A DNA stretch of 64,000 nt from Streptomyces asoensis (GTDB lineage: Bacteria; Actinomycetota; Actinomycetes; Streptomycetales; Streptomycetaceae). The notes beneath the pieces were generated by a model that made no database searches, had not been told where the DNA came from, and saw only the letters and a program-made list of their open reading frames with translations. Position 1 is the first letter of the stretch. Every line of letters starts with the position of its first letter. Of the stretch, positions 4,189-53,984 are shown piece by piece. The stretch covers positions 4,526,001 to 4,590,000 of the forward strand of contig NZ_CP049838.1 in NCBI RefSeq assembly GCF_013085465.1. Direction: 5' to 3'. A program made the position numbers and the translations under genes.

Positions 4189-4203
4189 CTGACGGATCGT
4201 CAG
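4189..4203. promoter_or_regulatory. CTGAC-N5-GTCAG operator, site 1
   Basis: Perfect 15-bp inverted repeat CTGACGGATCGTCAG centred about 28 bp upstream of the amidohydrolase ATG. Same motif as twelve other sites in the window. A TetR-type repressor site is inferred from size and symmetry. Confidence 0.75.
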
Positions 4204-4332
4204 CTAGTGGGCGGGAGCCGGAGTTGATCGACTCTGTGGGGATGTGTGCACACCGGATGTGAGGGGTGTGTGGACTCCCGTGCAGCTGCCGGGCAAGCTG
4301 ACGCTTCCGGCATGGACAGGGCAAACTGGCCT

Positions 4333-4519
4333 AGGACCTGTCCGGCCGATCACGTCGCAGGAGAGTGACGGTGCCGAAGCAGCGCCGGTGAGTGGGGTCC
4401 GGTGCGTGCGGCTGCAAGGCGGAGGAGGGCGTCGGCGCGGAGCGTCGACAACCGACGACAACGCCGCAGACGTGCGTGCCGGACCCCGCGTCTGCGGCGT
4501 GATCGGCCGGACAGGTCCT
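4333..4519. repeat. MITE-like inverted-repeat element upstream of afsR
   Basis: The 343-bp gap before afsR holds two perfectly complementary 22-bp arms, 4333-4354 and 4498-4519 (core GGACCTGTCCGGCCGATCAC), separated by 143 bp. Inside is a second perfect 12-bp hairpin, 4461-4472 with 4489-4500, plus shorter complementary GGGGTCCGG/CCGGACCCC segments. It contains no gene. The terminal arms and compact size look like a miniature transposable element, but no target duplication is certain. It could equally act as an attenuator or bidirectional terminator in the afsR leader. Confidence 0.65.
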
Positions 4520-4546
4520 TGATTCGGATGCCTAAGGGGAGCCCTG

Positions 4547-7525
4547 ATGGACGACCGGGTAGGACACCGCGACCCGCGTGTGCCGGAGCAGAGACGTCCC
4601 GGCTCCCCCGAGGAGCCGGCGACGCTGCGCTTCGACGTGCTCGGCCCGGTGCGCGCACGTCGCGGCGACGAGCGGCTGGCCACCGGTTCGCCGCAACAAC
4701 GCGCCCTGCTGGCCGCCCTGTTGCTGCGTGAGGGCCGTACGGCGACGGCCGCCGAGCTGATCGACGCGCTGTGGGGCGAGGAGCCTCCGTCGCAGGCGCT
4801 CGCGGCGGTACGGACCTACGCCTCCCGGCTGCGCAAGGTGCTCGACCCGGGCGTCCTGGTGAGCGAGTCGGGCGGCTACGCGGTGCGCGGCCTGGCCGAG
4901 GGCGCGCTGGACCTGGCGGTGGCGCAGGAGTGGGCGGCGGAGGCGGAGAAGGCACGGACCGCCGGGGACCTGTCCCACGCCCGCGAGGTACTGAACCGGA
5001 CGCTGGGGCTGTGGGACGGGGAAGCCCTGGCCGGCGTCCCCGGTCCGTACGCGGAGGCGCAGCGCGTCCGGCTGGAGGAATGGCGGCTGGGACTGCTGGA
5101 GTCCCGGCTGGACATGGACCTGGAGCAGGGCTGCCACGCGGAGGCCGTCTCCGAACTCACCGCGCTCACCGCGGCGTACCCGTTGCGCGAGCGGCTGCGC
5201 GAACTGCTGATGCTGGCGCTGTACCGCAGCGGCCGGCAGGCGGAGGCGCTCGCCGTGTACGCGGACACCCGGCGGCTGCTGGCGGAGGAGCTCGGGGTGG
5301 ATCCGCGGGCCGGACTGCGGCGGTTGCAGCGCCGTATCCTCCAGGCCGACCCGGAGCTGGCGGAGCCGTCGGCGCCGGCGGCCCAACCGGCGGTGGTGCG
5401 GGTGCGGCCCGCGCAACTCCCGGCCACCGTGCCCGACTTCACCGGCCGCTCCGCCTTCGTACGGGAACTGAGCGAGGTGCTCGCGCGAGCCGGGGACGGC
5501 ACGGGCGGGGGCGGCCGGGTGATGGCGGTGTCCGCGCTCGCGGGCATCGGGGGCGTGGGCAAGACGACCCTCGCCGTGCACGTGGCCCACCAGGCCCGTC
5601 CGGCCTTCCCCGACGGGCAGTTGTACGTCGATCTCCAGGGCGCGGGGCCGCGGTCGGCGGAGCCGGAGACGGTCCTCGGGTCGTTCCTGCGGGCCCTGGG
5701 CACGGCGGACTCGGCGATCCCCGACTCCCTGGCGGAGCGGGCGGCGCTGTACCGCTCGGTGCTGGACGGCCGCCGGGTGCTGGTGCTGCTGGACAACGCG
5801 AAGGACGCGGCCCAGATACGCCCGCTGCTGCCGGGCACGGAGGGCTGCGCGGCGCTGGTCACCTCGCGGGTGCGGATGGTGGACCTGGCCGGAGCGCATC
5901 TCGTCGACCTGGACGTGATGTCCCCCGAGGAGGCCCTCGCCCTCTTCACCCGGATCGTCGGCGAGGAGCGGGTGGCGGCGGAGCGGAAGGCCGCGCTGGA
6001 CGTGGTGGCCGCGTGCGGTTTCCTGCCGCTGGCGATCCGTATCGCGGCCTCCCGGCTGGCCGCCCGCCGCACCTGGACGGTCTCCGTCCTCGCCGCCAAG
6101 CTGGCGGACGAACGGCGCCGACTGGACGAGCTCCAGGCGGGCGACCTGGCGGTGAAGGCGACCTTCGAACTCGGCTACGGCGCCCTGGAGCCCGCCCAGG
6201 CCCGCGCGTTCCGGCTGCTCGGCCTGGCGGACGGCCCCGACACCTCCCTGGCGGCGGCCGCGGCGGTCCTGGACCTGCCGGTGGAGGACACCGAGGACCT
6301 GCTGGAGTCCTTGGTGGACACCTCCCTGCTGGAATCGGCGGCCCCCGGCCGCTACCGGTTCCACGACCTGGTACGGCTCTACGCGCGTGCGTGCGCCGAC
6401 CGCGACGAGCCGCCCGGAGAACGCGACGCGGCGCTGTCACGGTTGCTGGACTTCTATCTGGCGACGGCGGCGGGGGTCTACGCCATCGAACGGCCCGGCG
6501 ACCGCACGGTCGTCCACCTGGAGCCCACCTCGTACCGGGGGTTGTCCTTCGGCGAGCGGACGCAGGCCCTCGACTGGCTCTTCGCGGAGGCGCAGTGCCT
6601 GCTGGCGTGCGCACGGCAGCAGCAGACGGGCAGCGGCCTGCGCCGTGCCGTCGATCTGCTCTGGGCCGCCAAGGACCTGGCGGAGTCGGGAGCGAACGCG
6701 AAGCAGTACGAGTGGGCGGCCACGGCCCTGCGGGACGCCGCGCAGGACGCCGCCGACGTCCGCGCGGAGAGCCGCGCCCGCACGGCGCTCTCCAACGTCC
6801 ACCTGGCCGCCGGACGGTACGCCGAGGCGGACGAGGAGGCCCGGCGCGCGATCGAACTCGCCACGGCGGCGGACGACGCGACGCCGGTCAGCTGGGCGGC
6901 GACGGACCGGGGGATCATCGCGCTCAACCAGGGGCGGTACGAGGAGGCGGAGCGGCTCCTGACGACGGCCCGGGACGGGTATCGCGCCGACGGCAACCGC
7001 CCGGGTGAGGCCAGCGCGCTCTGCAACCTCGCTCAGCTGCACCAGCGCATGAACCGTGCCGACAGCGCGGTCTCGCTCGCGCAACAGGGCGTCGACATCT
7101 TCCAGCAGCTCGGTCTCAGCCTGCGCCTCGCGAACGGCCGCTACTCCCTGGGCGTGGCGCTCACCCGCGCCGGGCGCCTGCCGGAAGGTCTGGCCCAGCT
7201 CACGGACGCCATGCTGATCTTCGCCTCCAACCGGCAGCGGCTGTGGGAAGGCACGACGCATCTGCGCATCGCCCAGCTGCACCTGGCCGCCCAACGCCCC
7301 GCCCAGGCCGCTCAGCACGCGGAGCAGTCCCTCGCCATCGGGGTCATCGGGGGTGACCTGATCCGAGGCAGCGTCCTGAACACGCTGGGCAAGAGCCTGC
7401 GCGCGCTGGGTCAGTCGGACCGGGCGCGAGCCTGTTGGCACGAGGCCCTGCTCCTCCTGGAGAATGCGGGGGCGCCCGAGGCCGCCGAGGTGCGTCGACT
7501 GCTGGCCCCTCTGGACGCGTCATGA
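4547..7525 (+). CDS. afsR: AfsR-type SARP regulator (winged helix, BTAD, NB-ARC, TPR)
   Basis: 992 residues, matching the 993 aa known for S. coelicolor AfsR. Domains in order: OmpR-like winged helix (about 28-115), bacterial transcriptional activator domain (about 120-265), NB-ARC ATPase with P-loop GIGGVGKTT at 333-341 and LLDN Walker B near 415, and C-terminal TPR repeats (about 700-985). AfsR is a global activator of antibiotic production that is phosphorylated by AfsK-type kinases and activates afsS. ATG at 4547 is preceded by AAGGGGAG. The small afsS gene lies immediately downstream and an AfsK-like kinase lies 8 kb away on the opposite strand, which supports the assignment over an unrelated SARP. 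Confidence 0.93.
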   Translation: MDDRVGHRDPRVPEQRRPGSPEEPATLRFDVLGPVRARRGDERLATGSPQQRALLAALLLREGRTATAAELIDALWGEEPPSQALAAVRTYASRLRKVLDPGVLVSESGGYAVRGLAEGALDLAVAQEWAAEAEKARTAGDLSHAREVLNRTLGLWDGEALAGVPGPYAEAQRVRLEEWRLGLLESRLDMDLEQGCHAEAVSELTALTAAYPLRERLRELLMLALYRSGRQAEALAVYADTRRLLAEELGVDPRAGLRRLQRRILQADPELAEPSAPAAQPAVVRVRPAQLPATVPDFTGRSAFVRELSEVLARAGDGTGGGGRVMAVSALAGIGGVGKTTLAVHVAHQARPAFPDGQLYVDLQGAGPRSAEPETVLGSFLRALGTADSAIPDSLAERAALYRSVLDGRRVLVLLDNAKDAAQIRPLLPGTEGCAALVTSRVRMVDLAGAHLVDLDVMSPEEALALFTRIVGEERVAAERKAALDVVAACGFLPLAIRIAASRLAARRTWTVSVLAAKLADERRRLDELQAGDLAVKATFELGYGALEPAQARAFRLLGLADGPDTSLAAAAAVLDLPVEDTEDLLESLVDTSLLESAAPGRYRFHDLVRLYARACADRDEPPGERDAALSRLLDFYLATAAGVYAIERPGDRTVVHLEPTSYRGLSFGERTQALDWLFAEAQCLLACARQQQTGSGLRRAVDLLWAAKDLAESGANAKQYEWAATALRDAAQDAADVRAESRARTALSNVHLAAGRYAEADEEARRAIELATAADDATPVSWAATDRGIIALNQGRYEEAERLLTTARDGYRADGNRPGEASALCNLAQLHQRMNRADSAVSLAQQGVDIFQQLGLSLRLANGRYSLGVALTRAGRLPEGLAQLTDAMLIFASNRQRLWEGTTHLRIAQLHLAAQRPAQAAQHAEQSLAIGVIGGDLIRGSVLNTLGKSLRALGQSDRARACWHEALLLLENAGAPEAAEVRRLLAPLDAS

Positions 7526-7927: not shown

Positions 7928-7955
7928 GCGCCGACCGTCACCACTCCGACGGGGA

Positions 7956-8015: not shown

Positions 8016-9596
8016 TCAGCGGGACCGCAGCTCGCCCTTCACCACCTTGCCGCTCGCGTTGCGGGGCAGGGCGGTCACGAACTCCACCGCCCTCGGCACC
8101 TTGTAGTTGGCCATCTCCCGCCGGGCCCAGGCGATCAGGTCGTCGGCCGTGGAGACCGCGCCCGGCCGCCGGACCACGTACGCCTTGCCCACCTCGCCCA
8201 GGCGGGGATCCGGGATGCCGATCACGGCCACGTCGGCCACGTCCGGGTGCAGGCCGAGGCGCTGCTCTATCTCCGCCGGGTAGGCGTTGAAGCCGCCGAC
8301 GATGAACATGTCCTTCAGGCGGTCGGTGATCCGGAGGTTGCCGGCCGCGTCCAGGACGCCCACGTCGCCGGTGCGCAGCCAGCCGTCCTCCGTCAGGGCC
8401 TCCGCCGTCGCCGTCTCGTCCTCGTAGTAGCCGCGCATCACGTTGAAGCCCCGGACCAGCACCTCCCCGGGCCGGCCCGGCGCCGCGTCCACCCGCACCT
8501 CGGTGCCGGGGATCGCGCGGCCCGACGTCGAGGCGATGACCGTGGGGTCGTCCCCGCGGCGGCACATGGTGACGACACCGCTCGCCTCCGAGAGGCCGTA
8601 CGCCGTCAGGACCGTCTCCACGCCCAGTTCGCCCCGCAGGCGCTCGACGAGCCGCAGCGGCACCACGGCCGCGCCCGTGACCACCAGCCTCAGCGCCGAC
8701 AGGTCGTGCTTGTCCCGGGACGCGTGGTCCAGGAGCGACTGGTGGAGGGTCGGCGGGCCGGGGAGGACCGACACCCGTTCCGACGCCACGTTCGCGAGGA
8801 CCGTGTCCACGTTGAACACCGGCTGGGGGATCATCGTCGCGCCCCGCATCAGACAGGCGATCACGCCCGCCTTGTAGCCGAAGGTGTGGAAGAAGGGGTT
8901 CACGATCAGGTAGCGGTCGCCCTGTCGCAGCCCCGCCAGGTCGGTCCAGATCTCGTACGCCCGCAGCGTCTGCGCGTGGGTGATCACCGCCCCCTTGGGG
9001 CGGCCCGTCGTGCCCGAGGTGAAGACGATGTCCGACGGCCACTCCCCCGCCACCCGGTCCGCTCGCGCCCGGACCTCCGCCGTCCCGATGCCCTCCCCGC
9101 TCGCCAGGAAGTCCTTCCAGGTCCGGAAGTCCGCCGGGGCGTCGTCCGAGAGCACCACCACCTGCTCCAGCGCGGGGAGCCCCGGCAGCGGGCCGGTCCC
9201 GGCGCCCTCGGCCGCCGCCCGCCGCAGCGACGCCACGTACGACGTGCCCAGGAAGGTGCCCGTCACGAACAGCAGACGCGTCCCGCTGCGGCGCAGCACG
9301 TCCGCCGCCTCCGTGCCCTTGAAGCGGGTGTTCAGCGGCACGAGCACCGCTCCCGCGCTCACCGCGCCGAGCGCCGCCACCATCCAGTCCAGGGAGTTCG
9401 GGGCCCAGACGGCCACGCGGTCGCCCGCCCGCACCCCGTTCGCCAGACAGGCCGCCGCCGACCGTTCGACGCGGGCGCCGAGCTCGGCGTACGAGATCCG
9501 GGTACGGCCCTCCACCACCGCCTCGGTCGTCGCGTACCGCTCGGCGGACCAGCGGACCAGGCCGGGGATCGTCCCCCACTCCATGTCACCACGCAT
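8016..9596 (-). CDS. FadD3-like acyl-CoA ligase (AMP-forming)
   Basis: 526 residues, ANL-superfamily ligase that adenylates a carboxylate and transfers it to CoA. Seen: P-loop FTSGTTGRPKG near 190, the FFHTFGYKAG segment, AYGLSEASG, the hinge DRLKDMFIVGGFN near 428 and the C-terminal catalytic Lys in NASGKVVKGE. Several blocks (NPFFHTFGYKAG, LPGPPTLHQSLLDH) closely resemble actinobacterial FadD3, which activates the HIP propionate of steroid rings, so a ring-containing acid substrate is plausible but not proven. ATG at 9596 is chosen because GGGGAGG lies 6 bases upstream. It is divergent from the thiolase-like operon, with two palindromic operators in between. Confidence 0.9.
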   Translation of the reverse strand: MRGDMEWGTIPGLVRWSAERYATTEAVVEGRTRISYAELGARVERSAAACLANGVRAGDRVAVWAPNSLDWMVAALGAVSAGAVLVPLNTRFKGTEAADVLRRSGTRLLFVTGTFLGTSYVASLRRAAAEGAGTGPLPGLPALEQVVVLSDDAPADFRTWKDFLASGEGIGTAEVRARADRVAGEWPSDIVFTSGTTGRPKGAVITHAQTLRAYEIWTDLAGLRQGDRYLIVNPFFHTFGYKAGVIACLMRGATMIPQPVFNVDTVLANVASERVSVLPGPPTLHQSLLDHASRDKHDLSALRLVVTGAAVVPLRLVERLRGELGVETVLTAYGLSEASGVVTMCRRGDDPTVIASTSGRAIPGTEVRVDAAPGRPGEVLVRGFNVMRGYYEDETATAEALTEDGWLRTGDVGVLDAAGNLRITDRLKDMFIVGGFNAYPAEIEQRLGLHPDVADVAVIGIPDPRLGEVGKAYVVRRPGAVSTADDLIAWARREMANYKVPRAVEFVTALPRNASGKVVKGELRSR

Positions 9597-9622: not shown

Positions 9623-9637
9623 CTGACTGACCGTCAG
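9623..9637. promoter_or_regulatory. CTGAC-N5-GTCAG operator, site 2
   Basis: CTGACTGACCGTCAG, perfect outer arms, 26 bp upstream of the CoA ligase start in the divergent promoter region. Centre is 27 bp from site 3. Confidence 0.75.
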
Positions 9638-9649: not shown

Positions 9650-9664
9650 CTGACGGACTGTCAG
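9650..9664. promoter_or_regulatory. CTGAC-N5-GTCAG operator, site 3
   Basis: CTGACGGACTGTCAG, 32 bp upstream of the thiolase-like start at 9697. Together with site 2 it would allow coordinate repression of both directions. Confidence 0.75.
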
Positions 9665-9696: not shown

Positions 9697-10854
9697 ATGC
9701 CCGCAGTGACCGGAATCAAGGACGCCACGGCCATCGTCGGCATCGGGCAGACGTCCTTCGCCAAGCACCTCCCCGAGGATGAGCGGACCCTCGCCTGCCG
9801 GGCCGTCCTCGCCGCCCTCGACGACGCCGGGATCGCCCCCGGCGAGGTCGACGCGCTCGCCTCCTACACCATGGAGGAGACGGACGAGGTCGAGCTCGCG
9901 AAGGCCGTCGGGTTCGGGGACCTGACCTTCTTCAGCAAGATCGGGTTCGGCGGCGGCGGTTCCTGCGCCACCGTCGCCCACCTCGCCGCCGCCATCGCCG
10001 CCGGGCAGGCCACGGTGGGCGTCGCCTGGCGGTCGCGGAAAAGGGGCTCCGGGCCGCGTCCGTGGACCAACACGGCCGTCCAGCTCCCCACCCCGGCCCA
10101 GTGGACCCGGCCCTTCGGGCTGCTGCGGCCCGCCGACGAGATAGCCATGCTCGCCCGCCGCTATCTGCACGAGTACGGCGCCACCCGCGACCACCTCTTC
10201 AACGTCGCGCTCGCCTGCCGCAACCGCGCCAACCAGAACCCGGCCGCCGTGATGTACGAACGGCCCCTCACCCGCGAGATGTACATGTCGTCCCGGTGGA
10301 TCAGCGAGCCCCTGTGCCTGTACGACAACTGCCTGGAGACGGACGGGGCGTTGGCGTGCGTGATCGTGAGCAGCGAGCGGGCCCGGGACTGCCGCCGGGC
10401 ACCCGTCTACGTCCACTCCGCCGCCCAGGGCCTGCCCGCCCAGCACCACGGCATGGTCAACTACTGGAACGACGATCCGCTCACCGGCCCCGCCTGGGCA
10501 GCCGCCCGGCACCTGTGGAAACACGCCGACATCACCCCGTCCGACGTCGACGTCGCGCAGATCTACGACGCCTTCACGCCCCTCGTCCCGCTCTCCCTGG
10601 AGGGGTACGGGTTCTGCGGCCGGGGAGAGGGCGGGGCGTTCACCGAGGGAGGGGCCCTGGAGACCGGCGGACGGCTGCCCCTCAACACCGGCGGGGGCGG
10701 GCTCAGCGAGGCCTACGTCCACGGCTTCAACCTCATCAACGAGGGCGTCAAGCAGCTGCGCGGGACCAGCACCGCCCAGGTGCCGGGCGCCGCGACCTGC
10801 CTCGTCACCGCCGGCGAGGGCGTCCCGACCTCCGCCCTGCTGCTCAGGAACTGA
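9697..10854 (+). CDS. Thiolase-fold lipid-transfer-type protein (Ltp-like aldolase/thiolase)
   Basis: 385 residues of the thiolase superfamily, SCP-x/Ltp branch. Members such as Ltp2 catalyse retro-aldol cleavage of side-chain CoA esters together with a DUF35 protein. Seen: GGGGSCATVAHL with Cys near residue 90, YDAFTPLVP with Tyr near 290, and GGGGLSEAYVHGFN with Tyr near 340 and His near 342 in place of the usual HPxG thiolase motif. This favours an aldolase-like rather than thiolytic role, but that is inference. ATG at 9697 follows GGAGGT. The next gene, 38 bp downstream, is the DUF35 partner, and a crotonase follows; the three form an operon. Confidence 0.88.
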   Translation: MPAVTGIKDATAIVGIGQTSFAKHLPEDERTLACRAVLAALDDAGIAPGEVDALASYTMEETDEVELAKAVGFGDLTFFSKIGFGGGGSCATVAHLAAAIAAGQATVGVAWRSRKRGSGPRPWTNTAVQLPTPAQWTRPFGLLRPADEIAMLARRYLHEYGATRDHLFNVALACRNRANQNPAAVMYERPLTREMYMSSRWISEPLCLYDNCLETDGALACVIVSSERARDCRRAPVYVHSAAQGLPAQHHGMVNYWNDDPLTGPAWAAARHLWKHADITPSDVDVAQIYDAFTPLVPLSLEGYGFCGRGEGGAFTEGGALETGGRLPLNTGGGGLSEAYVHGFNLINEGVKQLRGTSTAQVPGAATCLVTAGEGVPTSALLLRN

Positions 10855-10892
10855 CCGCACCGAGGAGAACGCACCGAGGAGTTGATCCCGCG

Positions 10893-11309
10893 ATGCTCAC
10901 CCCCGTCACCGACGCCGACGGCGCCCCCTTCTGGCGGTACGCCGCCCAGGGCGAACTCCGCGTCCAGGCCTGTACCGACTGCGGCGAACCCCGCTTCCCG
11001 CCCCGCCCCTGCTGCCCGCACTGCCAGTCCTTCGCGAGCGAGTGGCGGCGGATGTCGGGGCGCGGCCGGATCTGGTCCTACGTCGTCCCGCATCCGCCCC
11101 TGCTGCCCGACTACGCCGCCCAGGCCCCCTACAACGTGATCCTCGTCGAGCTGGCCGAGGCGCCCCGCATCCGGATGGTGGGGAACCTGGTGAGCGGACC
11201 GGGGGCGCCGCTCAACTCCCTCTCCCCCGACCGCGTCCGCATCGGCGCCCGCGTACAGGTCGTCTTCGACGGCGACGGGCTTCCGCAGTGGGTTCTGGAG
11301 CGGCCGTGA
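10893..11309 (+). CDS. DUF35 OB-fold/zinc-ribbon protein, partner of thiolase-like protein
   Basis: 138 residues. The N-terminus holds a rubredoxin-like zinc ribbon, C27-x2-C30 and C41-x2-C44, and the rest is an OB fold with the typical APYNVILVELAEAPRIRMVGNL strand pattern. DUF35 proteins bind acyl-CoA and stabilise or activate thiolase-fold partners (for example ChsH2 with Ltp2). ATG at 10893 is preceded by GAGGAG. It lies between the thiolase-like gene and a crotonase; its TGA overlaps the crotonase GTG start (GTGA). Confidence 0.88.
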   Translation: MLTPVTDADGAPFWRYAAQGELRVQACTDCGEPRFPPRPCCPHCQSFASEWRRMSGRGRIWSYVVPHPPLLPDYAAQAPYNVILVELAEAPRIRMVGNLVSGPGAPLNSLSPDRVRIGARVQVVFDGDGLPQWVLERP

Positions 11310-12079
11310 GTGTGCGACTGGACAGCGACAAGGACACCGGCGTCGCCGTCGTCACCCTCGACCGGCCCGCCCGGCTGAACGCCCTCGACCTCGAGGCCGT
11401 CCGCGAACTGAAGGACGTCTGGCGGGAGTTGCGGTTCGACGACTCGGTACGGGCCGTCGTCCTCACCGGGGCCGGGCAGCGGGCGTTCTGCACCGGCCTC
11501 GACCGGGACGCCGTCGTGCCGCAGCCCAACTCCCCGTACATGCAGGACGATCCGCTGCTCACCGTCGGCCCGAAGGCGAACGACCTGTGGAAGCCGGTCG
11601 TCGCCGCCGTGGAGGGGATGGCCTGCGGGGGCGCCTTCTATCTGCTCGGGGAGTGCGAGTTCGTCGTCGCGGGCGCCAACGCCGTGTTCTTCGACCCGCA
11701 CACCACGTACGGGATGGTCAGCGCGTACGAGTCGGTGCTCCTGGCACAGCGGATGCCGTACGGGGAGGTCGCGCGGATGATGCTGATGGGCACGGCGGAA
11801 CGGATCTCCGCCCGGCGCGCCTTCGACGTCGGGCTGGTGTCCGAACTCACCGACACCGGCGGGGCGTCGGCCGCCGCCGTCGCCTGCGCCGCCGTCGTCG
11901 CCGGGTATCCCGCCGCCGGGGTCCAGGGCACCGTGCGGGCGCTGTGGGCGGCGAAGGAGGCGGCCCGCGCGATGGGCTTCGCCCAGGCGCCGCATCTCAT
12001 CTCGCTGGGGAACCTGCCGAGCGAGGAACAGGCGGAGCTGTTCGCCGCCCGCTCGGCCGCCGAACCCCGGGTCCGCTGA
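11306..12079 (+). CDS. Crotonase-family protein (enoyl-CoA hydratase/isomerase-like)
   Basis: 257 residues from the GTG at 11306 that overlaps the stop of the DUF35 gene. The two oxyanion-hole segments are visible: QRAFCTGLDRDAV near 55-67 and EGMACGGAFYLLGECEFVVAG near 95-115. The stretch where hydratases carry the catalytic second Glu (consensus PE-x-x-x-G) reads DPHTTYGMVSAYE, so this Glu is replaced and simple hydratase activity is doubtful. Isomerase, hydrolase or decarboxylase activity are alternatives. Last gene of the operon starting at 9697. Confidence 0.85.
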   Translation: MSVRLDSDKDTGVAVVTLDRPARLNALDLEAVRELKDVWRELRFDDSVRAVVLTGAGQRAFCTGLDRDAVVPQPNSPYMQDDPLLTVGPKANDLWKPVVAAVEGMACGGAFYLLGECEFVVAGANAVFFDPHTTYGMVSAYESVLLAQRMPYGEVARMMLMGTAERISARRAFDVGLVSELTDTGGASAAAVACAAVVAGYPAAGVQGTVRALWAAKEAARAMGFAQAPHLISLGNLPSEEQAELFAARSAAEPRVR

Positions 12080-19000: not shown

Positions 19001-19015
19001 CTGACGGCATGACAG
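19001..19015. promoter_or_regulatory. Degenerate CTGAC-N5-GTCAG operator overlapping the TetR start codon, site 4
   Basis: CTGACGGCATGACAG: the left arm is perfect and the right arm reads GACAG instead of GTCAG. The ATG of the TetR gene (19009) lies inside it. Suggests autoregulation by the TetR protein. Confidence 0.5.
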
Positions 19016-22717: not shown

Positions 22718-22732
22718 CTGACGGTGCGTCAT
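22718..22732. promoter_or_regulatory. CTGAC-N5-GTCAG operator, site 5
   Basis: CTGACGGTGCGTCAT, one mismatch at the last base, 22 bp upstream of the acyl-CoA dehydrogenase start. Confidence 0.65.
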
Positions 22733-22790: not shown

Positions 22791-22805
22791 CTGATGTACC
22801 GTCAG
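22791..22805. promoter_or_regulatory. CTGAC-N5-GTCAG operator, site 6
   Basis: CTGATGTACCGTCAG, one mismatch in the left arm, ending only 4 bp before the ATG of the thiolase-like gene at 22810. That leaves no room for a Shine-Dalgarno, so a leaderless transcript is likely. Confidence 0.7.
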
Positions 22806-35293: not shown

Positions 35294-35308
35294 CTGACAC
35301 TCCGTCAG
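35294..35308. promoter_or_regulatory. CTGAC-N5-GTCAG operator, site 8
   Basis: CTGACACTCCGTCAG upstream of the NDP-forming acyl-CoA synthetase operon; 24 bp from site 9. Confidence 0.75.
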
Positions 35309-35317: not shown

Positions 35318-35332
35318 CTGACAGAGCGTCAG
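35318..35332. promoter_or_regulatory. CTGAC-N5-GTCAG operator, site 9
   Basis: CTGACAGAGCGTCAG, 46 bp upstream of the synthetase start. A further half-site-like TTGACG follows at 35338 and may be the -35 element. Confidence 0.75.
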
Positions 35333-37604: not shown

Positions 37605-37614
37605 GGACCACCTC

Positions 37615-38436: not shown

Positions 38437-38466
38437 CGGGGTCCCGGCTGCCGCGGCCCTTCCTAT

Positions 38467-38481
38467 CTGACATGCCGTCAG
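38467..38481. promoter_or_regulatory. CTGAC-N5-GTCAG operator, site 10
   Basis: CTGACATGCCGTCAG, perfect arms, ending 5 bp before the ATG of the flavin reductase, which again suggests a leaderless transcript. Confidence 0.75.
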
Positions 38482-38486
38482 TTTCA

Positions 38487-45726: not shown

Positions 45727-45748
45727 CGCGTCCCCTCCGTACCGTCCG

Positions 45749-46897
45749 CTATCCCTTGGGTTGCCTGGGCAGGCCGAGCACCCGCTCGGCGATGATCGTG
45801 CGCTGGATCTGGTCCGAGCCGCCGTAGACGGTGTCGGCCCGGGAGAACAGGAACAGGTGCTGCGCGTCGTCGAGTTCGTACGGCGAGGACGGCGACCAGT
45901 CCGCGGGGCCGACGCTCGCCGCCGCCCCCCGCACCTGCACCGCCACCTCCCCCAGCCGCTGATGCCAGCCGGCCCACAGCAGCTTCGCCACGCTGGGCGC
46001 GCCCGGCCCGCCGGAGCCCCCCAGCGTCCGCAACGCGTTCCACCGCATGGTGCGCAGCTCGGCCCACAGCCGCACCAGCCGCTCGCGTACGACGGGGTCG
46101 TCGGCCGCCCCCGTCCGCACCGCCGTACGCACGACCCGTTCCAGCTCCTGGGCGAAGCCGATCTGCTGGGCGAGGGTCGACACCCCGCGTTCGAAGCCGA
46201 GGAGGCTCATCGCCACCCGCCAGCCGTCGCCCGCCGCGCCGACGACGTGCTCCACGCGCGCGTGCGCCCCGTCGAAGAAGACCTCGTTGAAGTCGCTGGT
46301 GCCGGTCAGCTGCCGGATGGGCCGCACCTCGATCCGTCCCGGCTGGTCCATGGGGACGAGGAGAAAGGTCAGTCCGTGGTGCCGCCTGGACTCCGGATCT
46401 GTGCGGGCGAGCACGAAACACCAGTCGGCCTCATGGGCGAGCGAGGTCCAGATCTTCTGCCCGGTGACGCGGTACGACCGTCCATCGGGGGCGAGTTCGG
46501 CTCTCGTACGGACCCCGGCCAGGTCGGACCCGGCGCCCGGCTCGCTGTACCCCTGGCACCACAGCTCGGCACCGGCGGCGATCGGCGGCAGGAAGCGCGC
46601 CTTCTGCTCCGCCGTGCCGTGCGCGAGCAGGGTCGGCGCGAGCAGGTTCTCCCCGATGTGCCCGGAACGGGCCGGGGCCCCCGCCCGCGCGTACTCCTCG
46701 GCCCAGGCAACCTGCTGGGTGAGACTCCCGCTCCGATTCCCGTACCCGCCCTCCGCCCACCCGAGCCCGATCCACCCGGCCGAGCCGAGGGTGCCTTCCC
46801 AGGCCCGGCGATCGGAGGCGTGCGGGGCGTGCTCGGCGAGCCAGGCCCGAGCCTCGGCCCGGAACTCCTCATCCAGGGAACTTGATCCGAAATCCAC
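45749..46897 (-). CDS. Acyl-CoA dehydrogenase (FadE type)
   Basis: 382 residues, GTG 46897 with GAGGCGG upstream. Family features: WCQGYSEPGAGSDLAGVRTRAE near 113-134, GQKIWTSLAHEADWCF near 146-161, GGSDQIQRTIIAERVLGLPR near the end (TVYGGSDQIQ, the FAD/adenine segment). It resembles the larger subunit of actinobacterial two-subunit acyl-CoA dehydrogenases used for ring or branched CoA esters. A smaller partner is not adjacent; the 428-residue protein at 21410 or the 294-residue one at 50558 might serve. Middle gene of the SDR-ACAD-ADH operon. Confidence 0.9.
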   Translation of the reverse strand: MDFGSSSLDEEFRAEARAWLAEHAPHASDRRAWEGTLGSAGWIGLGWAEGGYGNRSGSLTQQVAWAEEYARAGAPARSGHIGENLLAPTLLAHGTAEQKARFLPPIAAGAELWCQGYSEPGAGSDLAGVRTRAELAPDGRSYRVTGQKIWTSLAHEADWCFVLARTDPESRRHHGLTFLLVPMDQPGRIEVRPIRQLTGTSDFNEVFFDGAHARVEHVVGAAGDGWRVAMSLLGFERGVSTLAQQIGFAQELERVVRTAVRTGAADDPVVRERLVRLWAELRTMRWNALRTLGGSGGPGAPSVAKLLWAGWHQRLGEVAVQVRGAAASVGPADWSPSSPYELDDAQHLFLFSRADTVYGGSDQIQRTIIAERVLGLPRQPKG

Positions 46898-46934
46898 GGC
46901 ACCGCCTCACGTCGGGGGCAAGCTGCCCGACTCG

Positions 46935-46980
46935 AGGGGCGCGGGGAACTGCGCGACCGGCCACAGACGACCCGCACCCG
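46935..46980. repeat. Interspersed streptomycete intergenic repeat
   Basis: The segment starting AGGGGCGCGGGGAACTGCGC and continuing to CCCGCACCCG matches, from memory, a short repeat common between genes in Streptomyces. It fills half of the 103-bp gap between SDR and ACAD genes. Confidence 0.55.
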
Positions 46981-47000
46981 AAAGACCACAGGAAGCACGC

Positions 47001-47915
47001 TCAGGCGTTGGGCCGGCTCCCCTCCCGCGCGGCCCGAGCCATCTCCTCCAACCGCGCGAGCATCGGCATCGGATCCACCCCCACCGCCCCCGGCAACACC
47101 TCCGCGATCCGCTCCGGCGTCCAGGAACCCCCCTCCGCATAAGCCGAACGCAGTTCAGCAGGCTGCGCCCACACCGCGATCTTCGGCCCCGCGACGGTGT
47201 ACACCTGCCCGGTGATCCCCACGTCCCGCGCACGGTCCGACAGCAGATACACCACGAACGCGGCCACGTCCTCGGGTTCGCCGATCTCCGCCAGCTCCAT
47301 GGGCACGCCCGCGGACATCCGCGTACGGGCCACGGGGGCCACCGCGTTGGCGGTCACCCCGTACTTGTGCAGTCCCAGCGCGGCGCTCCGCACGAGCGAG
47401 ATGATCCCGCCCTTGGCGGCGCTGTAGTTGGCCTGCGAGACCGAGCCCTGGTGGTTGCCGCTGGTGAAGCCGATCAGCGTCCCGGAGCGCTGCCCGCGCA
47501 TCACCGCCGACGCGGCCCGGAACACGGTGAACGTGCCCTTGAGATGGGTGGCGACGACGGGGTCCCACTCCTCCTCGGACATGTTGAACAGCATCCGTTC
47601 CCGCAGGATCCCGGCCACGCACACGACCCCGTCGAGCCGTCCGTACGACGCCAGCGCGGTGTCGACGACCCGCTGCCCGCCCGCCATCGTCGAGATGTCG
47701 TCGGCGACGGCGACCGCCTCCCCGCCCGCCGCCTCGATCTCCTTGACGACGGACTCGGCGATCTCGCTGGTGGGTGAGGCGCCGTCCACCGAGACCCCGT
47801 AGTCGTTGACGACGACCCGCGCGCCCTCGGCCGCCGCCGCGAGCGCCACCGCCCGCCCGATGCCTCGTCCCGCACCCGTGACGGCCACGACCTTGCCGGT
47901 CAGGAAGTTCCCCAC
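47001..47915 (-). CDS. Short-chain dehydrogenase, MFE-2-like hydroxyacyl-CoA dehydrogenase type
   Basis: 304 residues, longer than the usual 250. NAD-binding TGAGRGIG at 13-20, NDYG after strand 2, catalytic Ser in GFTSGNHQG and Y-x3-K in YSAAK near 168-172. A C-terminal extension of about 50 residues (SWTPERIAEVLPG) is typical of SDRs related to the (3R)-hydroxyacyl-CoA dehydrogenase of multifunctional enzyme 2, found in actinobacterial lipid and steroid catabolism. GTG 47915. First gene of its operon, divergent from the cyclase gene with an operator 23 bp upstream. Confidence 0.9.
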   Translation of the reverse strand: MGNFLTGKVVAVTGAGRGIGRAVALAAAAEGARVVVNDYGVSVDGASPTSEIAESVVKEIEAAGGEAVAVADDISTMAGGQRVVDTALASYGRLDGVVCVAGILRERMLFNMSEEEWDPVVATHLKGTFTVFRAASAVMRGQRSGTLIGFTSGNHQGSVSQANYSAAKGGIISLVRSAALGLHKYGVTANAVAPVARTRMSAGVPMELAEIGEPEDVAAFVVYLLSDRARDVGITGQVYTVAGPKIAVWAQPAELRSAYAEGGSWTPERIAEVLPGAVGVDPMPMLARLEEMARAAREGSRPNA

Positions 47916-47937: not shown

Positions 47938-47952
47938 CTGACGGACCGTTAG
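47938..47952. promoter_or_regulatory. CTGAC-N5-GTCAG operator, site 11
   Basis: CTGACGGACCGTTAG, one mismatch in the right arm, in the divergent promoter region of the SDR operon and the cyclase gene. Confidence 0.68.
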
Positions 47953-48017: not shown

Positions 48018-48944
48018 ATGACACTGCCGGTCGAGTTCCACGACATCGCGAAGCGCGTCAACAACTGGGGGCGCTGGGGGGCCGACGACGAGATCGGCAC
48101 CCTGAACCTCATCACCGACGACGTCGTCCGCGCGGCCGCCGCCGAGGTCCGCACCGGCCGCCGCGTCCCGCTCGCGCTGCCCCTGCGGGAGGACGGCGTG
48201 CAGACCGGGCTGATCCCGGGGCGGGTCAACCCCCTGCACGCCATGGTGCAGATCAACCAGGAGATCTTCGGTCCGGGCACGGTGGCGTGCAGCGACGACG
48301 CCGTGACCATGGGCCTCCAGGCCGGCACCCACTGGGACGCGCTGACCCATGTCTCGCACTCGGGGAAGCTCTACAACGGCCGGCCGGCCGGCACCATCAC
48401 CCCGCACGGCGGCGCCGAGTTCAGCGGCATCGACAAGGCGCGGCACATCGTCTCGCGCGGGGTGCTTCTGGACGTGGCACGCGCGCGTGGCGTCGACCGG
48501 CTGGACGGCGGTCACGCGGTCACCCCGGAGGACCTGACGGCGGCCGAGGAACTGACCGGCACCCGCGTACGGGCCGGCGACATCGTGCTCGTACGGACCG
48601 GGCAGGTGCAGGTCTATCTGGCCGGTGACAAGCAGGGGTACGGCTATCCGTCACCGGGCCTTTCGGTCCGTACGCCGGAGTGGTTCCACGCGCGCGACGT
48701 GGCGGCGGTCGCCAACGACACCCTCACGTTCGAGATCTTCCCGCCCGAGATCGACAACCTGTGGCTGCCGGTGCACGCGCTCGACCTGGTGGAGATGGGG
48801 ATGCTCCAGGGCCAGAACTGGAATCTCGAAGAGTTGTCCACAGCCTGTGGACAAACGGGCCGCTATGCGTTCCTGCTGTCGGCGATGCCCGAGCCGTTCG
48901 TCGGCGGGACGGGAACTCCGGTGGCCCCCGTGGCGGTGCTCTAG
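48018..48944 (+). CDS. Cyclase-family (KynB-like) metal-dependent hydrolase
   Basis: 308 residues. The family motif H-x-G-T-H-x-D appears as GLQAGTHWDALTHVSH near 95-110, with NNWGRWGADDEIGTLNLI at the start, as in Streptomyces cyclase family proteins. Relatives hydrolyse amide, lactone or 1,3-diketone bonds (kynurenine formamidase, isatin hydrolase). In this regulon it could open a ring or cleave a diketone CoA intermediate; that is inference. ATG 48018 with GGGGAGG 7 bases upstream. Divergent from the SDR operon. Confidence 0.88.
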   Translation: MTLPVEFHDIAKRVNNWGRWGADDEIGTLNLITDDVVRAAAAEVRTGRRVPLALPLREDGVQTGLIPGRVNPLHAMVQINQEIFGPGTVACSDDAVTMGLQAGTHWDALTHVSHSGKLYNGRPAGTITPHGGAEFSGIDKARHIVSRGVLLDVARARGVDRLDGGHAVTPEDLTAAEELTGTRVRAGDIVLVRTGQVQVYLAGDKQGYGYPSPGLSVRTPEWFHARDVAAVANDTLTFEIFPPEIDNLWLPVHALDLVEMGMLQGQNWNLEELSTACGQTGRYAFLLSAMPEPFVGGTGTPVAPVAVL

Positions 48945-50557: not shown

Positions 50558-51442
50558 CTAACGGCCCCCTCCGGACAGCAGGTCGGCCGCGAGCAGTTCC
50601 TCACTCTCCGTACCGCCACCTGCACGCCGGGTGCGCAGCCAGGCCCGCTTGAGCAGCAGATGTACGTCCGCCTCCCAGGTGAAGCCCATGCCGCCGTGCA
50701 CCTGGAGGCAGTCGCGCGCGCCGCCTACGGCGGCCTCGTCGGCGAGCAGCCGGGCGGCCGCGATGTCCACCGGGTCGGCGGTGACGGCGGCCGCGTAGAC
50801 CGCCGCGCGGGCCACCTCGACCCGCACCAGCAGTTCCGCGCACAGATGCTTGACCGCCTGGAAGGCGCCGATCGGCTGCCCGAACTGCTCGCGCGCCCGG
50901 GCGTGTTGCACAGCGAGCTCGCACGCGCGCGTGGCCGTGCCGAGCTGCTCGGCCGCGGTGAGGAGCACGGCGACGGGGTCCGCCGCCGCCGAGGCGCCCG
51001 GAACGCGGTGCAGCGGCGTCAGCGGGTCCACCGACCGCAGCGGCACGGCCCCGCCGACCTCCCCGCACACGACGTCCGCCTCCGTCAGCCACTCCACCAG
51101 CCCGCCGGCGTCCACGGCCGCCACGACCGTCTCCCCCTCGGCCGCGCCGGGCACGCGGCCCGCCGCGAGGTGGGTGGCCACGAGCGGCCCCGGCAGCAGG
51201 GCCCGGCCGGCCTCCTCGAACGCCAACACGGTCTCGGGCAGCCCGAGTCCGACCCCGCCGTCCGCCTCGGGCAGCCGCAGCGCGAAGAACCCGGCCGCCC
51301 CCAGCTCCCGCCACAGCGCCCGGTCCAGCCGCCCCGGCCGGTCCACGGCGGCCCGCAGCGCCGCCCGGTCGAAGCGGCGCGCCAGCAGCCCACGCACCCC
51401 GTCCCGCAGCGCCCGCTGGTCCTCCGTCAGTCGAAATCGCAT
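50558..51442 (-). CDS. Short acyl-CoA dehydrogenase subunit (294 aa, beta-type of a heteromeric pair)
   Basis: 294 residues, about 90 shorter than a full acyl-CoA dehydrogenase. The N-terminal helical domain (LTEDQRALRDGVRGLLARRF) and the C-terminal helical domain (ARAREQFGQPIGAFQAVKHL near 190, LQVHGGMGFTWEADVHLLLKRA near 250) are intact, while the middle beta domain is much reduced. Such short proteins form unequal two-subunit dehydrogenases with a full-length partner, as in FadE28-FadE29 of Mycobacterium. The partner is encoded 10 bp upstream. Not a pseudogene: the frame is clean and ends normally. Confidence 0.87.
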   Translation of the reverse strand: MRFRLTEDQRALRDGVRGLLARRFDRAALRAAVDRPGRLDRALWRELGAAGFFALRLPEADGGVGLGLPETVLAFEEAGRALLPGPLVATHLAAGRVPGAAEGETVVAAVDAGGLVEWLTEADVVCGEVGGAVPLRSVDPLTPLHRVPGASAAADPVAVLLTAAEQLGTATRACELAVQHARAREQFGQPIGAFQAVKHLCAELLVRVEVARAAVYAAAVTADPVDIAAARLLADEAAVGGARDCLQVHGGMGFTWEADVHLLLKRAWLRTRRAGGGTESEELLAADLLSGGGR

Positions 51443-51452
51443 GGCGGAGAGT

Positions 51453-52586
51453 TCACCGTCCCTTCGGCAGGCCCAGGATCCGTTCGGCCACGATGTTCCG
51501 CTGAATCTGCGAGGTACCGGCCGCGATGGTGTACGAGAGGGAGGAGAGCCGGTCGTGGACCCACGGGCGGTCGGTGTCCAGGGACTCGTCGCCCAGAACG
51601 TCGGCGGCGGTGTCGTACAGCTCCTGGCGGGCCTGCGAGTACCTCAGTTTGAAAACCGAACCCCCGACGCCCGGCAGGCCGCCCTTGGCCTCCGCCTCGC
51701 TCACGTTCCACTGCGTCAGCCGCCAGAGCGCCCGGAACTCGGCGTTGAGGGCGCCCAGCCGCCGCCGCAGGACGGGATCGTCCCAGCGGCCGTTCCTCCG
51801 TGCCTCCACGGCGAGTTCGCCCAGCACGCGGCGGCAGGCGACGACCTCGCCCACGAAGGCGGTGCCGCGCTCGAACGACAGCGTCACCATCGTCACCCGC
51901 CAGCCGTCGTTCTCCTCCCCCACCCGATGGGTGACCGGCACCCGCACCTCGTCGAGGAACACCTCGGCGAACTCGGCGGATCCGGCGAGGGTGCGCAGCG
52001 GCCGTACGGTGATGCCGGGGGCGTCCATGGGCATGGCCAGCCAGGTGATGCCCTGGTGCTTGGGCGCCGCCGGATCCGTGCGGACCAGCAGTTCGCACCA
52101 GTCGGCGACCTCCGCGTGCGAGGTCCAGATCTTGGACCCGCTCACCACGTAGTCGTCGCCGTCGCGCCACGCGCGCGTGCGCAGCGCCGCGAGGTCCGAC
52201 CCGGCGTCGGGCTCGCTGAAGCCCTGGCACCACACCTCCTCCCCGCGCAGGATGGGCGGCAGCCAGCGTGCCCGCTGTTCGGCCGTCCCCTCGGCGGCGA
52301 TCGTCGGCCCGGCGTGCAGCAGCCCGACGAAGCCGGCCCCCACGTAGGGCGCGCCCGCCTTCTCCGTCTCCTCCAGGAAGATCAGGCGGACACCGGGCGA
52401 GGCCTGCCAGTGCACGTCGGCGTACCCGGCGTCGTACAGCGTCCGCTGCCAGCCGAGGTCGTAGGCGCGGCGGCCGGGCCAGTCGTCCGGGGACGGCTTC
52501 GGCGGGAGCGTGGGCAGCACCTTGCCAAGCCACTCGCGCAGCCGGGCCCGGAACTCCGCGTCCTCGGGACTGTCCGCGAGGTCCAT
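51453..52586 (-). CDS. Acyl-CoA dehydrogenase (377 aa, alpha-type of a heteromeric pair)
   Basis: 377 residues. Features: WCQGFSEPDAGSDLAALRTRAW near 118-139, GSKIWTSHAEVADWCELL near 150-167, and C-terminal IAAGTSQIQRNIVAERILGLPKG, the FAD-contacting segment. Together with the 294-residue protein it would form an alpha2-beta2 enzyme oxidising a ring- or side-chain CoA ester. ATG 52586 is 33 bp after the amidohydrolase stop. Paralogous to the gene at 45749. The operon order amidohydrolase, ACAD alpha, ACAD beta is under operator 12. Confidence 0.9.
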   Translation of the reverse strand: MDLADSPEDAEFRARLREWLGKVLPTLPPKPSPDDWPGRRAYDLGWQRTLYDAGYADVHWQASPGVRLIFLEETEKAGAPYVGAGFVGLLHAGPTIAAEGTAEQRARWLPPILRGEEVWCQGFSEPDAGSDLAALRTRAWRDGDDYVVSGSKIWTSHAEVADWCELLVRTDPAAPKHQGITWLAMPMDAPGITVRPLRTLAGSAEFAEVFLDEVRVPVTHRVGEENDGWRVTMVTLSFERGTAFVGEVVACRRVLGELAVEARRNGRWDDPVLRRRLGALNAEFRALWRLTQWNVSEAEAKGGLPGVGGSVFKLRYSQARQELYDTAADVLGDESLDTDRPWVHDRLSSLSYTIAAGTSQIQRNIVAERILGLPKGR

Positions 52587-52619
52587 GGTCCTGATCCCCC
52601 TGCCCTGATCCCGTCCCGG

Positions 52620-53816
52620 CTACTTGTCGAGGTCCAGGTCCAGCATGCGGATCGCGTTGCCGCGCATGAGCTTGTAGACCGTCTCCTCGTCGAGGCCCTT
52701 GACGTGGTCGAGGGCGACCTCCTTGGTGTGCGGGAAGGTCGAGTCGACGTGCGGGTAGTCGGTCTCGAAGGTCGCGTTGTCGCGCCCCACCACGTCCAGG
52801 GACGCGACCCCGTGCTTGTCGCGGAAGAAGCAGCAGAACATCTGCCGGTAGTAGTACGTGGACGGCGGCTCCGGGACGATGTCCCTGACCCCGCCCCACG
52901 CGCGGTGCTCCTCCCAGACGTCGTCGGCACGCTCCAGGGCGTACGGGATCCAGCCCATCTGACCCTCGGAGTAGGCGAGTTTGAGGCGGGGGAACTTCAC
53001 CAGCACCCCGCTGAAGAGGTAGTCCATCATCGACGCCATCGCATTGTTGAACGAAAGGGACGCCTGGACGGCCGGCGGTGCGTCCGGCGAGGCGGCCGGC
53101 ATCTGCGAGGAGGAACCGATGTGCATGTTGACGACCGTGCCGGTCTCCTCGCACACCGCGAAGAACGGGTCCCAGTAGCCCGAGTGGATCGACGGCAGCC
53201 CGAGGTGGCTGGGGATCTCGGAGAAGGTCACCGCGCGCACCCCGCGGGCCGCGTTGCGCCGGATCTCGGCGACCGCCAGGTCGATGTCCCACAGGGGGAT
53301 CAGACAGAGCGGGATGAGCCGCCCGCCGCTGTCCCCGCACCACTCCTCGACCATCCAGTCGTTGTAGGCGCGCACACAGGCCAGCGCGACCTCCTTGTCG
53401 TGCGCCTCGGCGAAGGTCTGTCCGCAGAAGCGGGGGAAGGAGGGGAAGCAGAGGGAGGCCTCGACATGGTTGAGGTCCATGTCCGCCAGCCGGGCCTTCG
53501 GGTCCCAGCAGCCGCGCCGCATCTCCTCCCGGGTGATGCCCTCCAGCGTCATCTCGTCCCGGTCGAAGCCGACGGCGGCGATGTTGCGCTTGTACGGGAA
53601 CTTCAGGTCCTCGTAGATCCACCAGTCGGTGGGCTGGCCGTCCGGGTCCATCGTGATCTGGTACTTCCCGGCGACGTAGGCGAGCTCGCCGATCCCGGCG
53701 GTGAGGGGCTGCGGCCCCCGGTCCCGGTACTTCTGCGGCAGCCAGGTCGCGAAGAGGTGCGCGGGCTCGATCACATGGTCGTCGACGCTGACGATGCGCG
53801 GCAGTTCGGTGCTCAT
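52620..53816 (-). CDS. Amidohydrolase-2 family metal-dependent hydrolase/decarboxylase (paralogue 2)
   Basis: 398 residues, closely similar to the protein at 2909-4168. Metal ligands: D-x-H in SVDDHVIEP at 10-18, His in NMHIGSSS near 225 and Asp in ETDYPHVDS near 353. The conserved RAYNDWMVEEWCG, CFPSFPRFCGQTF and AFSEIP-like segments are shared with paralogue 1. Two such enzymes in one regulon suggest two successive C-C or C-N cleavage or decarboxylation steps, or two substrates. ATG 53816. First gene of the operon with the dehydrogenase pair. Confidence 0.9.
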   Translation of the reverse strand: MSTELPRIVSVDDHVIEPAHLFATWLPQKYRDRGPQPLTAGIGELAYVAGKYQITMDPDGQPTDWWIYEDLKFPYKRNIAAVGFDRDEMTLEGITREEMRRGCWDPKARLADMDLNHVEASLCFPSFPRFCGQTFAEAHDKEVALACVRAYNDWMVEEWCGDSGGRLIPLCLIPLWDIDLAVAEIRRNAARGVRAVTFSEIPSHLGLPSIHSGYWDPFFAVCEETGTVVNMHIGSSSQMPAASPDAPPAVQASLSFNNAMASMMDYLFSGVLVKFPRLKLAYSEGQMGWIPYALERADDVWEEHRAWGGVRDIVPEPPSTYYYRQMFCCFFRDKHGVASLDVVGRDNATFETDYPHVDSTFPHTKEVALDHVKGLDEETVYKLMRGNAIRMLDLDLDK

Positions 53817-53880
53817 GGCTTCCCCTCCGCCTGGCGGAACGCCAGTTGTCCGATGGACGTGTCCCGGCCGTCCGAGCTAT

Positions 53881-53895
53881 CTGATGGCCCGTCAG
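53881..53895. promoter_or_regulatory. CTGAC-N5-GTCAG operator, site 12
   Basis: CTGATGGCCCGTCAG, one mismatch in the left arm, 65 bp upstream of the amidohydrolase start. Confidence 0.7.
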
Positions 53896-53969
53896 ATTGT
53901 TTCTCCCCAGCAGGCTAGCCCCCACCCCCTGGACCGACAAGGCGACCGGCCCTACGCTCTGCCCAAAAT

Positions 53970-53984
53970 CTGACAGCCCGTCAG
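53970..53984. promoter_or_regulatory. CTGAC-N5-GTCAG operator, site 13
   Basis: CTGACAGCCCGTCAG, perfect arms, 18 bp upstream of the CoA ligase GTG at 54003. Confidence 0.75.

Follow-up and report, generated by a model that had tools for sequence, protein, structure and literature searches.

A putative TetR-family operator, CTGACG-N3-CGTCAG, at acyl-CoA catabolic genes of Streptomyces asoensis

Described systems and the palindromes of the window

The closest described counterpart of the palindromic sites reported here is the operator of KstR, a mycobacterial TetR-family repressor of cholesterol catabolism which also represses its own gene; an excerpt of PMC1995591 counts 16 motif instances in one mycobacterium and 31 in another. 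We analysed a 64,000-nucleotide stretch of the Streptomyces asoensis chromosome (the window; C1:4526001-4590000 of the 10.04 Mb single-contig genome, G000; GC content 0.725), in which a 15-bp inverted repeat recurs at the starts of genes for CoA-ester enzymes and of one TetR-family gene. DitZ and PtmU3, which are amidohydrolase-fold enzymes of diterpenoid metabolism, PtmU3 being a type III CoA thioesterase, are the best solved-structure relatives of both amidohydrolases encoded in the window. A further relevant system is the igr operon, comprising ChsE1-ChsE2, ChsH1-ChsH2 and Ltp2, whose components take the propionyl residue off steroid side chains, as stated in an excerpt of PMC12502768.

The system in the window resembles that of KstR, as excerpted, in having a TetR gene with the palindrome in its own promoter and further copies at many lipid-catabolic promoters, some of them divergent or with two copies. 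It differs in the operator itself, which is TnnAACnnGTTnnA for KstR and an AT-flanked CTGACG-N3-CGTCAG here, and in the presence of DitZ-like hydrolases among the targets of a genome in which KshA was not found. Neither the operator motif nor this TetR family was described in the open-access titles and abstract beginnings listed, and searches with the motif strings and the Pfam name likewise gave nothing; the pathway may be new. Our reading, to which we assign a probability of roughly 0.78, is that a single TetR-family repressor, the product of 19009-19656, controls its own gene and uses the palindromes as operators, and would thereby regulate acyl-CoA catabolism.

Exact copies of CTGAC-N5-GTCAG were found eight times in the window, where 0.12 would be expected, and none of 100 shuffles gave eight or more. 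Five additional sites carry a single mismatch in the ten arm bases. The original prediction had described all 13 as copies of the same repeat; every position was recovered, while identity of sequence holds for the eight only. With at most one arm mismatch allowed, the window contains 14 sites, whereas 40 Markov-1 simulations averaged 3.1 and never exceeded 8. Thirteen of them lie at gene starts, as predicted; gene starts were assigned throughout with a simple caller written for this analysis. The fourteenth, 62310-62324 (CTGGCGCTCCGTCAG), is situated deep in the called gene 62295-63290 and is probably a chance match. The 13 sites define nine promoter regions, i.e., the eight enzyme loci that had been proposed and the TetR gene. 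Seven regions lie between divergent genes and four contain paired sites. Two assignments to divergent gaps had to be corrected, namely the pair 35294/35318 and site 38467; the latter is found within an operon, in a 50-bp gap with an enoyl-CoA hydratase (ECH) gene on one side and a flavin reductase gene on the other.

Genome scan and conservation of the sites

The regulon extends past the window. In the whole genome the exact palindrome occurs 54 times, compared with 4 for the pattern read backwards, and the version with A/T flanks (ANCTGAC-N5-GTCAGNT) 14 times, compared with none for the control. We examined 50 of the 54 sites, including 42 of the 46 outside the window; two further site lists reach only to about 5.97 and 8.15 Mb of the chromosome. 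Among these 42, 21 were located in start zones, 13 deep in coding sequence and 8 elsewhere. Start zones comprise 14.8% of the background sample, which gives P = 8e-8 for the 21 sites found there. The bare 15-mer is thus not specific alone, because nearly a third of these copies are inside coding sequence. A/T flanks are scarcer in the coding copies (mean 0.54 of 2, against 1.05 of 2 in start copies), which look like chance matches.

A 31-bp weight matrix was trained on 29 exact start-zone sites, the scores of which are hence not independent. It was run on approximately 1.5 Mb of the genome: 1.147 Mb around candidate sites, including the window and picked around pattern matches rather than at random, and 400 kb of background in 20 spread stretches. 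At 22 bits or more there were 33 matches in the 1.147 Mb, of which 31 were at gene starts, one in coding sequence (6474575) and one elsewhere (3020866). The background contained no match of at least 18 bits and one of at least 16 bits. The distance to the called start was 140 bp or less for 29 of the 31 start sites, which together mark 26 promoter regions, eight within the window and 18 outside. Of these 18, 13 lead to CoA-ligase, thiolase, dehydrogenase, SDR (short-chain dehydrogenase/reductase), LLM (luciferase-like monooxygenase) or ferredoxin-type genes. A second matrix, made from the 13 window sites only, was less clean: it gave 21 start, 7 coding and 2 other matches outside the window at 18 bits or more and none in the background; at 16 bits the numbers were 26, 14 and 3, and the background gave four matches, one at a start, two in coding sequence and one elsewhere. 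Over this part of the genome, the scan which had been proposed as a check gave the outcome foreseen, with the matches almost exclusively at gene starts and mostly before CoA-type enzymes.

Conservation was followed in 80 named loci, the closest that contain the TetR gene, of which 79 bear the name Streptomyces and one "Actinobacteria bacterium OV320"; gene starts were matched by tblastn. A site of at least 20 bits was kept at all matched starts of FadD3 (50/50), Ltp (52/52), acyl-CoA dehydrogenase (ACAD, 61/61) and thiolase (69/69) genes; the sum of 232/232 represents two divergent regions, FadD3/Ltp and ACAD/thiolase, each counted from both sides. No site was present at the control genes, i.e., kinase (0/44), Lrp (0/25) and gene 27902 (0/61), together 0/130, nor at the smaller controls, gene 26955 (0/7) and a hemG-like gene (0/3). 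The SARP gene (4/6) and gene 30329 (4/4) do show sites, because their gap is common to a target gene. The start of the TetR gene carried a site in 79 of 80 loci at 16 bits and in none at 20 bits, and the VOC gene across the same gap in 65 of 76 at 16 bits. The amidohydrolase could be matched in a single locus, with a site (1/1).

The same operator was found at related genes in other families, where gene families were assigned by Pfam. In three loci of family f3 (L192, L198, L199) the genes it accompanies are 54-56% identical to FadD3 and 78-79% identical to Ltp. L198 has two sites between relatives of the SDR (71%) and the cyclase (57%), and both L192 and L198 have 28.9-bit sites at 40-41% identical relatives of the NDP-forming ligase at 35379. 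Genome G088 carries the operator at a relative of the amidohydrolase (65% identity, 25.0 bits), at LLM genes (53%, 58%) and ACADs (57%, 39%), with further sites at nitronate monooxygenase and DUF35 genes, and G086 carries it at two ACADs (39%, 34%) and an SDR (31%). In G086, G088 and the three f3 loci, the TetR gene is no more than about 10 kb away from such operators.

The TetR gene and a proposed mechanism

The product of the TetR gene contains the TetR_N helix-turn-helix (PF00440) and a PF19352 C-terminal domain, and its structural model is all-helical. The model is of moderate quality (predicted local distance difference test, pLDDT, 75; predicted template modelling score, pTM, 0.66), so its fold neighbours are a lead only: EthR with a TM-score of about 0.7, followed by acyl-CoA-binding FadR repressors with about 0.6. 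In sequence, too, EthR is the nearest PDB entry, with a match confined to the N-terminal part; identity in the fold alignment is approximately 19%. There were 3797 homologues at E <=1e-10, and among the 120 listed we found automatic names only (TetR family, AcrR, SlmA, division inhibitor).

Exactly one match to this TetR (E <=1e-20) was present in each of 61 Streptomyces-type genomes. It was also present in all 14 f3 genomes and in G086, G087, G088 and G096, in total 79 of 100 genomes. The flanked operator was found in 73 of these 79, while the 21 genomes without the TetR have 0 to 2 flanked operators each; kinship confounds this co-occurrence. An informative exception is G078, with Ltp2 and a strong KshA, no TetR match and 2 flanked sites. 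All 97 loci scanned have the TetR gene's own site, CTGACGGCATGACAG, at the corresponding position; the other 13 of 110 were in reverse orientation and left out. In 14 distant loci with 45-75% identity, a site above 14 bits lies at the TetR start in 12. The segment TS-x-ATFYQYF, which is the recognition helix, was invariant in 11 divergent orthologues, and a short palindrome suits a TetR dimer. The regulator that had been suggested is favoured by the self-site, by the co-occurrence and by copies of the operator which, in other families, stand at related genes in the vicinity of the TetR gene; this TetR, starting at 19009 or 19021, very probably acts on the palindromes.

From this we infer binding by the TetR, repression, a ligand and a substrate as follows. 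A TetR dimer would bind the AT-flanked CTGACG-N3-CGTCAG at the start of its gene and in some 26 further promoter regions, many of them divergent or containing two sites; being close to the start codons, it would most likely block initiation there, that of its own gene included. Most likely it would be released by an acyl-CoA intermediate or the free acid, and the enzymes for CoA activation, dehydrogenation, hydration and retro-aldol or thiolytic cleavage would then be induced jointly. That an acyl-CoA would relieve the repression is suggested by the kinds of targets and the FadR-type fold neighbours. A -10-like TAAGCT (18997-19002) overlaps the TetR operator and ends six bases before the ATG at 19009; this arrangement would fit a leaderless transcript whose start the repressor covers. 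No promoter was found by a scan of 22600-22900.

Several observations weigh against this reading. Firstly, the TetR gene's own site scores lowest among the 13, and its promoter is nearly invariant, which makes footprinting there uninformative, and it was dropped. Among the distant loci, no site exceeds 14 bits in L194 and L197, and L183 has one at its TetR start which is hardly palindromic. In genus g5 of f3 (L189, L190, L193) a site above 16 bits is found at the TetR start only, and six genomes with the TetR have no flanked site (G010, G017, G029, G043, G053, G096). Secondly, other regulatory genes are found near sites: site 3160350 is 135 bp upstream of paired genes for a histidine kinase and a response regulator, and an Rv2175c-like DNA-binding protein is encoded behind the reductase in the operon that follows 2926716. 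Thirdly, the targets are not uniform. Behind five of the 18 off-window regions stand genes of another type, and the DUF35 gene at 29669 had a site at only 6 of 49 matched loci, a low count which possibly comes from a mix-up with a second DUF35 gene. Finally, G087 has 296 exact copies of CTGAC-N5-GTCAG in 5.5 Mb against 3 of the control (loci L166-L180, L183, L200). Of 19 copies examined there, 7 were located within genes, 6 in gaps where convergent genes meet and the remaining 6 elsewhere, and only 2 of the 19 were within 250 bp before a called start; these palindromes are probably an element of another kind than the operator. G069 has 92 bare palindromes but 8 flanked ones. The count of bare palindromes was dropped as a measure of regulon size on account of these two genomes.

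Target genes, pathway and alternative explanations

The operators and target genes are collected in Table 1.

Table 1. Sites and genes assigned to the putative regulon. Positions are those of the window, and of the chromosome for off-window entries.
Feature	Position	Strand	Basis or score
TetR-family regulator, presumed repressor	19009..19656	+	PF00440 and PF19352 above cut-offs; ATG 19009, or GTG 19021 by own caller
Operator, exact, ahead of amidohydrolase-LLM operon	4189..4203	.	26.7 bits; 28 bp from start of gene 2909-4168
Operator, exact, first of pair, FadD3/Ltp divergent promoter	9623..9637	.	29.6 bits
Operator, exact, second of FadD3/Ltp pair, 27 bp further	9650..9664	.	24.4 bits
Operator, degenerate, overlaps TetR gene start (ATG 19009)	19001..19015	.	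17.0 bits; 1 arm mismatch (GACAG)
Operator, ACAD/thiolase divergent promoter	22718..22732	.	24.9 bits; 1 arm mismatch (GTCAT)
Operator, ACAD/thiolase divergent promoter, second site	22791..22805	.	28.2 bits; 1 arm mismatch (CTGAT)
Operator, exact, ahead of DUF35 (ChsH2-type) gene	30087..30101	.	29.2 bits
Operator, exact, ahead of NDP-forming CoA ligase operon	35294..35308	.	28.9 bits
Operator, exact, second of ligase-operon pair, 24 bp further	35318..35332	.	31.6 bits
Operator, exact, intra-operon, ahead of flavin reductase	38467..38481	.	28.4 bits
Operator, SDR/cyclase divergent promoter	47938..47952	.	26.4 bits; 1 arm mismatch (GTTAG)
Operator, amidohydrolase/CoA ligase divergent promoter	53881..53895	.	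24.6 bits; 1 arm mismatch (CTGAT)
Operator, exact, amidohydrolase/CoA ligase divergent promoter, second site	53970..53984	.	30.0 bits
Amidohydrolase (DitZ-like) and LLM monooxygenase	1989..4168	-	Pfam; DitZ match
FadD3-family acyl-CoA ligase	8016..9596	-	NF005801, 793 bits vs cut-off 657
Ltp-type thiolase, DUF35 (ChsH2 C-domain) protein, ECH	9697..12079	+	Domain matches
ACAD and F420H2-dependent quinone-reductase-type protein	20940..22696	-	Domain matches
Thiolase-like protein	22831..23979	+	Domain match
DUF35 (ChsH2-type zinc ribbon, OB-fold) protein	29669..30082	-	Domain match
NDP-forming CoA ligase, ECH, HsaB-like flavin reductase	35379..39098	+	HsaB 185 bits, cut-off 230 not reached
SDR, ACAD, zinc alcohol dehydrogenase	44677..47915	-	Domain matches
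PF04199 cyclase-family protein	48018..48944	+	Domain match
Amidohydrolase (DitZ-like) and two ACADs	50558..53816	-	Domain and PDB matches
AMP-forming acyl-CoA ligase	54003..55511	+	Domain match
Off-window: ECH, ligase	975140
Off-window: DUF35, thiolase	1996173
Off-window: ferredoxin-reductase type	2926716
Off-window: MaoC, alcohol dehydrogenase, SDR operon	3160350 (L034)		26.6 bits; between operon and histidine kinase/response-regulator pair
Off-window: LLM	3172472
Off-window: LLM	4524572
Off-window: LLM	7051315
Off-window: aldehyde dehydrogenase, ferredoxin	3180054
Off-window: ligase	3977698
Off-window: SDR	4502628
Off-window: SDR	4525465
Off-window: ChsH2, ChsH1, Ltp2 operon	4953182
Off-window: gene without Pfam match, then ferredoxin	5469090
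Off-window, other kind: DapB-like	163084
Off-window, other kind: SRPBCC	1944283
Off-window, other kind: PorA (PF11271)	2780593 (L030)		22.8 bits; 198 bp ahead of gene
Off-window, other kind: glyoxalase	6186269
Off-window, other kind: methyltransferase	8059573
Off-window, weaker site: carboxyl transferase	1511827		19.0 bits

Judged by its sequence matches, the target set is one of steroid/terpenoid-type acyl-CoA catabolism. Both window amidohydrolases belong to Amidohydro_2, with DitZ as the closest solved structure (E = 3e-58 and 9e-56), and the ACAD at 51453 matches Tcur3483 (6wy9) best. The off-window Ltp2 matches PDB 6ok1 with E = 7e-166, and its neighbour ChsH2 matches 6ok1 and 4wnb. Ltp2 was present in 30 of 37 Streptomyces-type genomes searched (G000-G036), and the number of flanked sites was 3 to 14 in these 30 versus 0 to 2 in the 7 without it (Mann-Whitney p = 5e-5, kinship ignored).

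Thirty Ltp2 loci were compared: one is from f3, and the other 29, among them that of S. asoensis, come from this genus. In 8 of the 30, the operator was found no more than 1.5 kb away from Ltp2. After extension of 20 of the remaining 22 (L270 and L272 were left out), it was found, with 26-33 bits, at the head of an uninterrupted gene run in all 20, which makes 28 of 28 loci with enough sequence, the own genome among them. BLAST of every gene in four of the extended operons gave the order ACAD, ChsH2, ACAD, ChsH1 and then Ltp2 in all four, and 14 of the 20 start with the same ACAD according to the N-terminal sequence. The operon of these relatives is thus like igr, with the operator at its head, while that of S. 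asoensis differs: ChsH2, ChsH1 and Ltp2 adjoin without the ACADs, and the best match to the first of these ACADs in the genome stretches examined was 34% identical. In seven Streptomyces-type genomes (G003, G010, G017, G027, G028, G029, G031) the TetR is kept, Ltp2 is without a match and flanked operators number 0 to 2; most of the regulon seems to have been lost there, with the regulator persisting.

Enzymes like the steroid side-chain set (ChsH1, ChsH2, Ltp2), together with DitZ/PtmU3-like hydrolases, LLM proteins, ferredoxins and CoA ligases, point to a polycyclic or branched isoprenoid acid as substrate, a tentative assignment to which we give somewhat less than an even chance. Slightly more doubtful still is the wider proposal of a widespread, unrecognised Streptomyces pathway for such an acid, which would combine steroid-type side-chain modules with DitZ-like hydrolases, lack the ring hydroxylase and be controlled by one PF19352 TetR through CTGACG-N3-CGTCAG. 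The question raised is which compound is broken down with steroid-type side-chain enzymes where most streptomycetes are without KshA. For a regulator occurring in all 61 Streptomyces-type genomes searched, there are now a putative sequence-defined operator and a target list, by which some 26 promoter regions, for the most part dispersed on the chromosome, would be connected; the operator may be used as a biosensor handle and for locating missing pathway genes.

One repressor and one pathway had been predicted. The single repressor is favoured by self-site, co-occurrence and linkage; the genes fit one pathway, but they also fit a broader regulon. In this alternative the same operator and TetR would serve several unrelated substrates in a FadR-like response to acyl-CoAs in general. 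Four AMP-forming and one NDP-forming CoA ligases, several thiolase/DUF35 sets and four LLM proteins would agree with it, as would the scatter of the loci, the glyoxalase, SRPBCC, PorA, DapB-like and methyltransferase targets and the FadR-type repressors among the nearest folds of the model. The most specific enzyme matches, however, are steroid or diterpenoid enzymes, and the number of flanked sites tracks the presence of Ltp2; we regard the broad regulon as unlikely, though it is the best of the alternatives.

Improbable, in our opinion, is that another transcription factor binds the palindromes and the TetR gene is a mere target. The degenerate self-site, a co-occurrence that also tracks phylogeny and the regulator genes near 3160350 and 2926716 would be in line with this. 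Against it stand the self-site combined with linkage in G086, G088 and genus g3 of f3, the invariant recognition-helix segment and the fit of a short palindrome to a TetR dimer. Somewhat less probable again is an ordinary actinobacterial steroid (cholesterol) regulon under a KstR-like regulator, even with ChsH2, ChsH1, Ltp2, a FadD3-family ligase and an HsaB-like reductase present and a size comparable to the KstR regulon as excerpted. Apart from the different operator, the steroid ring hydroxylase domain KshA_C was not found in G000, and it reached about 300 bits in only 2 of 61 Streptomyces-type genomes (G012, G023); weaker matches in others, up to 97 bits, may be other Rieske oxygenases. 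The HsaA-like monooxygenase L293 (G000:C1:8305993-8307138) scored 379 bits, under the family cut-off of 450, and the background stretch covering it contains no operator of at least 18 bits. On KshA and HsaA, the two of its enzymes that were searched for, a full steroid pathway was rejected. According to an excerpt of PMC4810484, a survey of 57 Streptomyces genomes found 55 to be without a steroid pathway. That the palindromes are terminators, repetitive extragenic palindromic (REP)-like elements or chance is largely refuted and hardly credible, for although the bare 15-mer occurs in coding sequence and 13 of the 19 examined G087 copies are inside genes or between convergent genes, the start-zone placement, the AT flanks and the conservation at related gene starts here and in relatives contradict it.

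Three minor observations concern individual loci. The PorA target at 2780593 was unexpected in an enzyme regulon. The two-component system by 3160350 may belong to the regulon. In the window, the called 78-aa open reading frame at 7708-7944 on the minus strand contains the segment RAGGTGEWFSS twice and is possibly a small repeat and no real gene.

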